A program made the translations under genes and the position numbers. From a virus: 41,739 nt of DNA. The notes below the pieces were generated by a model. The model worked only from the letters and a program-made list of their open reading frames with translations. It was not told the origin of the DNA and did no database searches. How positions within the stretch are numbered: the stretch's first letter is position 1; the number at the start of each line of letters is the position of its first letter. Below are positions 30,945 through 34,600 of this stretch, piece by piece. Location of the stretch: the IMG/VR virus record IMGVR_UViG_3300023174_000314, positions 1 to 41,739 of that record; one strand, given 5' to 3'.

Positions 30945-31670
30945 ATGGCTATACCTATTATTGCTACCCCAACATATGAATTGATTCTTCCTTCAACTGG
31001 CAAGAAAATCAAGTACCGCCCATTCCTAGTCAAGGAAGAGAAAATGCTTCTCTTGGCAATGGAAACAAAAGATTCCGCCCAAATTCAGACTGCAAGCAAA
31101 GCCGTAATTGCGGATTGTACTTTCGGGGAAATGGATGTTGAAAAGTGTCCTCCATTTGATCTTGAGTACATCATGCTTCAACTCCGCATCAAGTCAGTCG
31201 GAGAAACAGTCACTCCTAGTTTTAAGTGCAATAAGTGCGAAACTTCAAACGAAGTAGAAGTAGATCTGACCAAGATTAATGTAGTTCAGACTGAAGGACA
31301 TAGCAACACCATAAAGTTGTCCGATACTATGGGTGTTGTTATGCGTTATCCAACCATGTCGGATGATGATATTGCTCCTACAAGCAAAGAAGATTCTGAA
31401 AATGTCCTCAAGAATGCCGAAAGATCCATGCAGTTGATAGCATCCTGCATAGATGCAATCTATGATGGCGAAAAGGTATACAATACAAAGAACTTTACAA
31501 AGCAGGAAGTGATGGAATTCATAGAAAATCTTTCGCAAGGAATGTTCCAAAAGATTGCAACTTTCTTTCAAAATATGCCATCTTTGAAGCATGACATTAA
31601 ATTTGCTTGTGCCAAGTGTGGAGAGGAAAACAATCTTAGCATAAGAGGTGTTCAAGATTTTTTTACTTGA
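30945..31670 (+). CDS. 26: gp26-type baseplate/tail assembly protein with zinc ribbon (241 aa)
   Basis: The protein belongs to the T4 base-plate protein gp26 family as found in cyanophages: YELILPSTGKKIKYRPFLVK, a helical region, and a bipartite zinc ribbon with C95-x-x-C98 (FKCNKCE) and C222-x-x-C225 (FACAKCG). gp26 is needed for hub assembly in T4. It has its own late promoter and AAGGAG site. Just before its stop lies T TTT TTT, read in frame as codons 239-240, followed by a stem-loop, and the next ORF lies in the -1 frame. The gene therefore may encode two products, the 241-aa protein and a 306-aa fusion. This parallels tail assembly chaperones encoded just before tape measures in other phages. 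Confidence 0.85.
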   Translation: MAIPIIATPTYELILPSTGKKIKYRPFLVKEEKMLLLAMETKDSAQIQTASKAVIADCTFGEMDVEKCPPFDLEYIMLQLRIKSVGETVTPSFKCNKCETSNEVEVDLTKINVVQTEGHSNTIKLSDTMGVVMRYPTMSDDDIAPTSKEDSENVLKNAERSMQLIASCIDAIYDGEKVYNTKNFTKQEVMEFIENLSQGMFQKIATFFQNMPSLKHDIKFACAKCGEENNLSIRGVQDFFT

Positions 31671-31705
31671 TGATGCTGCATGATTCGTTGGCGAATCAAT
31701 TGCAG
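31658..31705 (+). promoter_or_regulatory. Candidate -1 ribosomal frameshift signal between gp26 and the next ORF
   Basis: Seven T residues (31658-31664) are read as T TTT TTT at the end of gp26. Eleven bases later begins a stem-loop: CTGCA plus TGATTCG (31676-31687) pairs with CGAATCA plus TGCAG (31692-31698 and 31701-31705), loop TTGG, with a two-base bulge. The gp26 stop TGA lies in the spacer. A -1 slip enters the downstream 65-codon frame at TAC TTG ATG. The geometry is that of known -1 frameshift sites, with a slightly long spacer. Confidence 0.6.
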
Positions 31706-31864
31706 ACTAATTTTATCATGCTGAAGGATCACAATTTTAGCCTCACGGAAATTGAAAACATGATTCCGTGGGAACGACAGATTTATATCGGTCTATTGAT
31801 TAACTATGTGAAGGAGCAAAAGGAAAGAATGGATCAAGAACAGGCTTCAATGAGAAGCGGATAA
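31670..31864 (+). CDS. Small tail assembly protein, gp51-position (64 aa)
   Basis: A 64-residue helical protein containing F-S-L-T-E-I-E-N-M-I-P-W-E-R-Q-I-Y, a motif I recall from small proteins encoded after gp26 in T4-like cyanophages and resembling tail assembly chaperone segments. In T4 the gene after 26 is 51, also needed for hub assembly, but T4 gp51 is much longer, so I give no symbol. The ATG at 31670 overlaps the gp26 stop (TGATG). No ribosome site stands at the right distance, so it is either made by coupling or as the C-terminal part of a -1 frameshift fusion with gp26. The tape measure follows 18 bases later. Confidence 0.75.
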   Translation: MMLHDSLANQLQTNFIMLKDHNFSLTEIENMIPWERQIYIGLLINYVKEQKERMDQEQASMRSG

Positions 31865-31882: not shown

Positions 31883-34600
31883 ATGGCAGAAGACATAACC
31901 AATTCAAACGCAGGAAATTCCAACCAGTCTATGGAAGGATTCAAGGCTGTCTCTCAAAAGTTGGGAGAAAACGAAAAGGTTTTGGGCAAGATTGCCGAAA
32001 GTTCAAACGATACTGGCGAAAAGATTGGCGACCTTGTGAGAAGACATAAAGAGGGTAATGATACATTAAAAGAAGTAGCAAATAGTTTGAACAATCTTGA
32101 TGATTCAAACAAAAAAATGTTAGAAAATGCGGCAGAAGAGAAGAGAGAGGCAAAGGCAGGAGGAAAAGCAGGGGCAAACGAAGTTAAAACTGAAGGGGAC
32201 AAAAAGGAAAAAAAGGAAAAAGACAAGTCCATAAAGTCTATGACTGACTTTAATAAGTCATTAGGCGCAATTGTCAACAATCTCACACAGGCAAAAGACG
32301 ATCTCATGTCTGGTAAGTTGTTTAAGAAGATGTATGTTAATGTGTATAAAGGATTCAGGTCGTTCTATCGTGTGTTTGGGAATGTCCTTGCTGAAGGTGC
32401 GGGACTTTTGTTCGGAACGCTCTCTACTGCACTTCCTAAACTCATAAGCAATCTTGGGACGCTATTCAAGCCTATTACTTTTCTGTTATCAAAAGTGGGA
32501 TTAAATCTTAAAGGACCTACTGAGTTCTTTAGTAAAATAGCAAATTTCTTCAATGAAACTGGTCCATTTATAAACAAAACATTGGGATTTATTGAAAAGA
32601 CATTTGGTAATAAAGCAGGAACCATCTTCCTAGAAGCCTTTGAAATCGGAGCAAAGATTGGAAATCTACTTCCCTTTCTTGCGGTTATACCTACCGCAAT
32701 TGAAACGGTAATGTCTGCATTTGAAATGATTACAAAAGGTGATTTCAAGGGAGCATTCAAATCAATATTTGTTGGATTTGTCAAAGGGTTTGCGGCATTC
32801 TTTACCCTCGGTCTTTCCGACTTTATATTTGATTTCAATAAGATGTTTGAGACACTATCTCAGCCTCTTGATGCCGTTTTTAGTGTATTCAAAGATCTTT
32901 TCTCGGTAATTTATGATGTCTTTCAAAGTGTAATGGTAATAGTCATGGGCATTTGGAATGATTTATTGGCACCAATACTATACTCTTTGTGGACAGATGC
33001 ATTACAACCACTTGGTAAGGCACTTTCTGCGTTGGGAGATATGCTTACAAGCGTGGTGGGAACACTTTTCTCCATAGTTGCGGGTGTATTGAAACCATTT
33101 ACAACTGTATTCAGAATAGTCTTTAAAATAATTTACGAGACTATCAAATTTATGTGGGAATATGGCATTCGCCCAATGTTAATGCCTCTTACCTTTGTCA
33201 TATCAATATTGTTCAAAACACTTGGGACTATATTTGATGGCTTCATGTATATTTTTCAGGGCATCAAATGGGTATTTGATAAGATATCATTCTGGGTAAA
33301 TGTGTTTACCAAACTTGTTGATATGGACGGAGATAATGCATCGGGGGGGATCGCAGATTTCTTTAATTCCTTACGAGCAATATTTGATTGGATAAGAGGC
33401 ATTATCATAGATGGTTTTTTTGCCTATGTAGATTTCTGGTGGCAAGGGGTAAAACTAATTTGGGATAGAATAGTTTTTACTTGGAATCAACTTGTAGGAC
33501 ACATCATATATGCATTGGAATGGTGGGGAGATCTTATCAAATCTGCATGGAATTATGTTTTTGGTTTGTGGGATGATCTTACCGATGCTTTGGCATATGG
33601 AATGCTTTGGTGGTGGGACGCAATCAAATCTGCATGGAATTATGTTTTTGGTTTGTGGGATCAACTCACAGATATGCTTGCATACGGAATGCTTTGGTGG
33701 AAGGATGCAATAATTGCAGCATGGGATTATGTCGTTGGATTGTGGGATGAACTCACAGATATGCTTGCTTATGGAATGCTTTGGTGGAAGGATGCTATAT
33801 TTGCAGCATGGGATTATGTTGTTGGTTTGTGGGATGATCTTACCGATGCTTTGGCATATGGAATGCTTTGGTGGAAAGATGCCATATTTGCGGCATGGGA
33901 TTATGTTGTTGAATTATTCAACGAACTTACAGATGCCTTGGCATATGGAATGCTTTGGTGGAAGGATCTGATAGACGAAGGATGGAAGAAAGTTACCGAT
34001 ATATGGAACTTCATTGTTGATGCACTTGCAGAAGCATTGGAACCTGCAATGGAGCCAATAAATCTATTCTTGGATAAGTTGAAGCAAATATGGGATTACT
34101 TGATGGGCAAGGTAGACGCTGTTCTTGGATGGTTTGGTCTTGGAAGCAAGAAGCCAGAAATGAAGCAAGAGGCTCCTCCCCCTCCAGAAGAAATTCCAGA
34201 AACTCCTATTGCTGCTCCTGCTACACCTCCTGCCCCTCCCCCTGCTCCTGCTCCTCCTGCTAGACCAATTGCTTGGTCTCCTTCTTGGGGCGGACCTGCG
34301 ATTCCTTACAATGAAGGTGGAGATATTGCAATTCAGGATATGATGCGAGGAGAAAAGAAATCTAGCCTCTTCAAAGATTACAAAGACGAAGAGCAAAGTG
34401 CCAAGTATCAAGAATTAAATACTGAAATGAAAAAGAGAATGGCAATGGCTCAAGGAGGCGGTGGCGGTTCGCCCATTATCATCAACAACTCTCCGACCAC
34501 AAATGTAGGTGGAGGAGGTGGTGGCGGCGCAATGCCTGTTGTAATCTCTCCGACTCCTGTTAGAAACATGGATCCAACTCGCGGTCTCATTAATACCTAA
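31883..34600 (+). CDS. Tail tape measure protein with 29-residue Trp-rich repeats (905 aa)
   Basis: The N-terminal 120 residues are charged and helical, followed by several long hydrophobic stretches (about residues 170-480, such as LLPFLAVIPTAIETVMSAF) typical of tape measures that line the tail tube and are ejected into the host membrane. Residues 547-691 are five near-identical 29-residue repeats (WWKDAIFAAWDYVVGLWD and variants), with degenerate copies on either side. The C-terminus has Pro/Ala-rich and poly-Gly segments. T4 gp29 (590 aa) has this role; the identity of this gene rests on length, helicity and its position after gp26 and the small chaperone-like ORF. An AAGGAAA ribosome site precedes the ATG; no separate promoter is seen. 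Confidence 0.82.
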   Translation: MAEDITNSNAGNSNQSMEGFKAVSQKLGENEKVLGKIAESSNDTGEKIGDLVRRHKEGNDTLKEVANSLNNLDDSNKKMLENAAEEKREAKAGGKAGANEVKTEGDKKEKKEKDKSIKSMTDFNKSLGAIVNNLTQAKDDLMSGKLFKKMYVNVYKGFRSFYRVFGNVLAEGAGLLFGTLSTALPKLISNLGTLFKPITFLLSKVGLNLKGPTEFFSKIANFFNETGPFINKTLGFIEKTFGNKAGTIFLEAFEIGAKIGNLLPFLAVIPTAIETVMSAFEMITKGDFKGAFKSIFVGFVKGFAAFFTLGLSDFIFDFNKMFETLSQPLDAVFSVFKDLFSVIYDVFQSVMVIVMGIWNDLLAPILYSLWTDALQPLGKALSALGDMLTSVVGTLFSIVAGVLKPFTTVFRIVFKIIYETIKFMWEYGIRPMLMPLTFVISILFKTLGTIFDGFMYIFQGIKWVFDKISFWVNVFTKLVDMDGDNASGGIADFFNSLRAIFDWIRGIIIDGFFAYVDFWWQGVKLIWDRIVFTWNQLVGHIIYALEWWGDLIKSAWNYVFGLWDDLTDALAYGMLWWWDAIKSAWNYVFGLWDQLTDMLAYGMLWWKDAIIAAWDYVVGLWDELTDMLAYGMLWWKDAIFAAWDYVVGLWDDLTDALAYGMLWWKDAIFAAWDYVVELFNELTDALAYGMLWWKDLIDEGWKKVTDIWNFIVDALAEALEPAMEPINLFLDKLKQIWDYLMGKVDAVLGWFGLGSKKPEMKQEAPPPPEEIPETPIAAPATPPAPPPAPAPPARPIAWSPSWGGPAIPYNEGGDIAIQDMMRGEKKSSLFKDYKDEEQSAKYQELNTEMKKRMAMAQGGGGGSPIIINNSPTTNVGGGGGGGAMPVVISPTPVRNMDPTRGLINT
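33521..33955 (+). repeat. Five tandem 87-bp repeats inside the tape measure gene
   Basis: Units begin at 33521, 33608, 33695, 33782 and 33869, each starting TGGTGG and encoding a W-W-x-D ... A-Y-G-M-L unit of 29 residues. Units 1 and 2 share long exact runs, as do units 3-5. Diverged units flank them at about 33437 and 33956. All are in frame, so the array can change length by whole units. Confidence 0.92.

Follow-up and report, generated by a model that had tools for sequence, protein, structure and literature searches.

We find that gene 26 of a T4-like myovirus very probably yields two tail assembly chaperones, a short and a long form, by a -1 slip on a run of seven Ts; from the sequence evidence laid out below, we put the probability of this reading at about 0.93. 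The window, by which we mean the whole 41,739-nucleotide stretch analyzed (IMG/VR record IMGVR_UViG_3300023174_000314), is part of such a virus, with baseplate, tail lysozyme, head closure, gp32-like and other genes that match T4-type families. The author of a preliminary description of this DNA was not aware of any account of frameshifting for T4-type gp26. This has to be revised, given that Vladimirov, Gautam and Davidson (Virology 2022, 566:9-15) are cited for T4-like tail assembly chaperones (PMC10885494 PRFect; PMC12846349 Adele) and, by the account of these citing papers, reported poly-T -1 signals in some T4-like TAC-N genes and, in other T4-like phages, a short gene accompanied by a separate, fused long one. 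By sequence these chaperones are of the same family as the window pair (T4 gp26/gp51), and gp26 and gp51 are presumably named in that study. As far as the citing papers tell, the principle is thus already known for T4-like phages, and the frameshift reading is right but not new in kind.

Gene 26 (30945..31670, + strand) encodes a short tail assembly chaperone (TAC-N) of 241 aa that belongs to the T4 gp26 family, and in profile searches its product matches PF12322 (E 1.2e-67) and phrog_150 (baseplate hub; E 3.7e-74) over the full length. At its 3' end the gp26 frame reads ...GTT CAA GAT TTT TTT ACT TGA, in which T TTT TTT (31658..31664, + strand), split as T|TTT|TTT, forms a putative -1 frameshift site, and the zero-frame TGA (31668..31670, + strand) ends the short form and overlaps an ATG at 31670-31672. 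The -1 frame extension (31664..31864, + strand; 66 codons and a stop) opens with TAC, whose first base is the final T of the heptamer, and would be joined to gp26 residues 1-240 as residues 241-306 to give a long form of 306 aa with the predicted junction peptide ...GVQDFFYLMMLHDSLANQLQTNF... The heptamer in its correct phase, the -1 relation of the next ORF and the limits of the fused part had all been proposed in the preliminary description; the first was read directly from the letters, the second follows from the ORF coordinates, and the computed fusion length agrees with the third.

Profile searches with the small ORF hit phrog_634 (gp51, 'baseplate hub assembly catalyst'; E 1e-22) as well as the C-terminal part of phrog_150, and the assignment of the extension as a gp51-tail domain draws additionally on an alignment with T4 gp51. 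Directly 3' of it lies the tape measure protein gene (31883..34600, + strand), which matches the tail length tape measure families phrog_58, phrog_1272 and phrog_305 with E values of 5e-15 to 2e-12; the chaperone locus is therefore immediately followed by the tape measure gene, as a locus of the G/GT type requires. In-phase T TTT TT(T/C/A) is rare, with only 2 sites in the 14,293 codons of the long window ORFs. The other site, at window position 33415, falls within the tape measure ORF and is probably due to chance.

Under the proposed mechanism, most ribosomes would halt at the TGA, and the short form of 241 residues would be set free. In a minority, the tRNA-Phe occupying both the P site and the A site on TTT TTT would re-pair one base back; these ribosomes would bypass the TGA and read on to 31864, giving the long form of 306 residues, which carries an additional helical domain at its C-terminus; an upstream GAGGTG and a downstream stem would enhance the slipping. 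By analogy with lambda gpG/gpGT, the short and long forms would together coat the tape measure protein, the product of the gene that follows; the extension may help to recruit tail tube or hub parts. That they act as chaperones of the tape measure protein we infer from position, family and the lambda system.

The heptamer is conserved throughout the relatives, which were drawn from IMG/VR (close and distant) and from named phages. The set holds 91 loci including the window, or 52 non-redundant loci at 90% nucleotide identity, with gp26 identity down to ~33%; the Ackermannviridae and the two-gene Tevenvirinae-type phages, both without the heptamer, lie outside it. An in-phase T TTT TT(C/T/A) is found in all 91 loci (52/52 non-redundant), always with a -1 extension of 55-72 codons that is conserved as coding sequence, with a bias toward third-position substitutions. 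The last base of the heptamer is C in 30, T in 20 and A in 2 of the non-redundant loci. The codon before its two phenylalanines is GAT, AAT, AGT, GCT, TCT or TTT; the residue thus differs between loci (D/N/S/A/F), with a constant T as third base. As background, NNT TTT TTY accounts for 56/374 (15%) of the other Phe-Phe pairs in the long ORFs of these loci, and the naive chance product over the 52 loci is ~1e-43, an indication only, since the loci are related.

One apparent exception, phage IME-SM1 (KR560069), has a +1 relation. Its slippery run (L090 2220-2235) is one T shorter than that of its sister Mendera (L125), which reads GAT TTT TTC GGC TGA followed by the usual -1 extension. Of 16 matching Menderavirus records, the listed ones apart from IME-SM1 have one base more, and we rejected IME-SM1 as a counter-example because its sister records carry the additional T. 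The missing T is probably a homopolymer indel that arose as a sequencing error; it makes IME-SM1 gp26 appear longer in the deposited annotation. Exact 20-mer matches in three Bacillaceae genomes were likewise set aside, as chance; they lie inside one conserved ORF of 555-560 codons which, judged by eye, presumably resembles a PilB/GspE-type ATPase.

A natural control is provided by T4, in which genes 26 and 51 are divergent neighbors. T4 gp51 matches PF12322 (E 4e-52) and phrog_150 (E 3e-84) along its length, so by homology it is a full-length gp26 paralogue that carries an additional tail at its C-terminus. This tail, residues 201-249 of T4 gp51, is what an alignment of the -1 extensions hits, with an hhalign E value of 2.8e-8, compared with 0.61 for gp26. 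T4 thus encodes by two divergent genes what the window would make from one by the predicted frameshift, and the homology of the extension to the tail of a gp26 paralogue supports the earlier proposal that gp26 and the small ORF are a T4-type equivalent of G/GT, that is, a short and a long chaperone. In several T4-type phages gp26 keeps the Phe-Phe pair as TTC TTT after GAG/GAA and the heptamer is gone; its absence goes together with a gene of its own for the long form. Given that the two phenylalanines persist there without it, the heptamer is, on this comparison, retained for its nucleotides, beyond the residues that they encode.

In a midpoint-rooted tree, which does not give the order of events, T4-type gp26 and T4-type gp51 each form one clade, apart from the single-gene phages. 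The frameshift form is also present within the Straboviridae, in Aeromonas phage 65 and Schizotequatrovirus. In AlphaFold models the gp26 chain ends at the shift site in a short helix, where T4-type gp51 continues into more helices. Fold searches of the PDB with the gp26 and gp51 models yielded nothing significant; among the matches listed for the gp26 model, the HK97 tail assembly chaperone 2OB9 had the highest probability (0.69; E 0.84, 55 columns), and a sequence search of the PDB with a T4-type gp51 profile returned nothing relevant.

The small ORF has ATGs of its own at 31670 and 31673, in the TGATGATG overlap with the gp26 stop, and ribosomes ending at the TGA could by translational coupling reinitiate there and make a free small protein. 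This overlap, the TAATG or TGATG of some relatives (L031, L038, L040, L087, L093) and public records that annotate the small ORF as its own gene (baseplate hub assembly catalyst gp51) are what such coupling would predict, but we regard it as improbable. As had been noticed before, the small ORF has no ribosome site at a normal distance: the closest Shine-Dalgarno-like element, GAGGTG, sits 19 nt upstream of the first ATG, by its spacing too far for ordinary initiation. Against coupling, 29 of 51 non-redundant loci have no ATG or GTG ahead of extension codon 18, although the codons before the first such start are conserved and spell the peptide R/L-I-x-L-S-H-D/N-S-L-x-N-Y-Y. An L, H, L and F among these codons are kept in 27-28 of the 29 loci, and substitutions there number 188, 160 and 396 at positions 1, 2 and 3, biased to the third position; a protein started later would therefore miss this part. 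Earlier TTG starts are present in some loci. An invariant heptamer would also be needless for reinitiation, and in T4 the tail exists only fused to a gp26-like domain. From these comparisons, reinitiation is not the conserved mechanism, and in the window it may add a little free small protein from the ATG at 31670.

Less probable still is transcriptional slippage, in which RNA polymerase would add or drop a U on the T run and so fuse the frames in some of the mRNAs. Seven Ts in the window, and runs of at least seven in some other relatives, would suit it, but in 30 of the 52 non-redundant loci the site reads T TTT TTC, and such a run of six Ts is usually too short for efficient transcriptional slippage. 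The fixed phase, together with a last base that may be C, T or A, instead fits codon-anticodon re-pairing, as expected of a -1 slip by the ribosome.

Two elements around the heptamer are candidates for raising the rate of slipping, and both probably do so. The Shine-Dalgarno-like GAGGTG (31645..31650, + strand) ends 7 nt before the heptamer and is predicted to form a duplex with the 16S 3' end at -12.3 kcal/mol; across the family, the upstream stretch pairs 1.0 kcal/mol more strongly than synonymous shuffles (Wilcoxon p 2e-4, with loci that are not fully independent). Downstream, after an 11-nt spacer (31665-31675) that is rather long, a 12-bp stem-loop with a 2-nt bulge (31676..31705, + strand) is present just as previously described, with an RNA fold of -14.0 kcal/mol and a z of about -2.8 relative to dinucleotide-shuffled sequences. 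Close relatives for a comparison of this stem fell into just three distinct lineages, and in the relative L004 (67% aa identity) this stretch folds into another stem (z -3.7 to -4.5). Over the 52 loci, downstream folding has a mean z of -1.1, with 37% below -1.5. We rejected a universal downstream stem, given that lineages differ in their stem and many are without one. The T run with its phase and the -1 relation, on which the earlier proposal could have failed in relatives, both stand (91/91 loci); downstream stems are strong in the window lineage and in some others, and are not family-wide.

In the Ackermannviridae (Kuttervirus, Vibrio 1.255.O, D507; loci L084 2690-2890, L085 2720-2910, L094 2200-2440 and L110-L124), the layout of gp26 and a -1 extension is kept and the heptamer is absent, the junctions reading CTT TTT CGC TAA, CTT TTC AAG TAA or ATT TTC ATT TAA. 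The Kuttervirus-type extension has no early start codon, and its junction DNA is nearly invariant though the gp26s of its members are only ~71% identical, which together suggest a non-canonical -1 site in these loci. A broader evolutionary reading, to which we give somewhat less than an even chance, is that the shift is governed by a conserved upstream SD-like element and fast-changing, lineage-specific stems, that the Tevenvirinae/Twarogvirinae escaped it via a single gene duplication, and that the Ackermannviridae keep the -1 relation with a non-canonical site.

The layout resembles that of lambda G/GT, reportedly worked out by Levin in 1993 and by Xu, Hendrix and Duda in 2004, in which a short protein with a -1 slippery heptamer near its 3' end is said to be followed by a -1 extension and then the tape measure gene. 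The likeness to the window is one of layout, in all four of these parts; the lambda heptamer is G GGA AAG, in contrast to T TTT TTT in the window, and gp26 is larger and has CxxC pairs. The TAC locus of Vandenendeviridae/Andersonviridae, as in phage Adele, has a conserved T-rich -1 site at the TAC-N 3' end and, like the window, a -1 frame that is always open and lies 5' of the tape measure gene, although its motif is GTTTTT and the phage families are different (PMC12846349).

In T4 itself, gp26 and gp51 are counted among the hub assembly chaperones in a review on the assembly of the tail (PMC3004832). Cyanophage gp51 was described by Sullivan et al. 2010 as having ~20% of the T4 length, without the first ~200 residues, and a frameshift is not among the proposals for the short protein in the parts of that paper available to us (PMC3037559). 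This cyanophage gp51 is the same small ORF as the window extension and, on our comparison, the N-terminal part that it misses is the one supplied by gp26. Many cyanophage records have no annotated gene where the -1 extension is found, and others enter it as a hypothetical protein or a separate gp51 (hits H65, H69, H77, H78, H82, H87, H91). DLP6, phiM19, RHph_I1_18 and OLIVR6 have an extra hypothetical ORF of ~120-150 aa after the chaperone extension, before the tape measure gene or a large ORF in its place (L088 2374-2820, L089 2394-2813, L091 2375-2755, L092 2317-2682).

Given that the principle is already published, the value of these results lies mostly in confirmation, in extension to the lineage of the window and in the clean natural control in T4, where the two phenylalanines are kept and the heptamer is lost. 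They also correct annotation: the truncated gp51 of cyanophages and many T4-like phages would be an extension of gp26 and no separate protein, and the gene pair would be widely mis-split. They support the view that gp26 and gp51 of T4, both hub assembly factors, are a short and long chaperone pair. If the broader evolutionary reading is true, the chaperones of T4-like phages would constitute a ready natural series on the loss and replacement of recoding.
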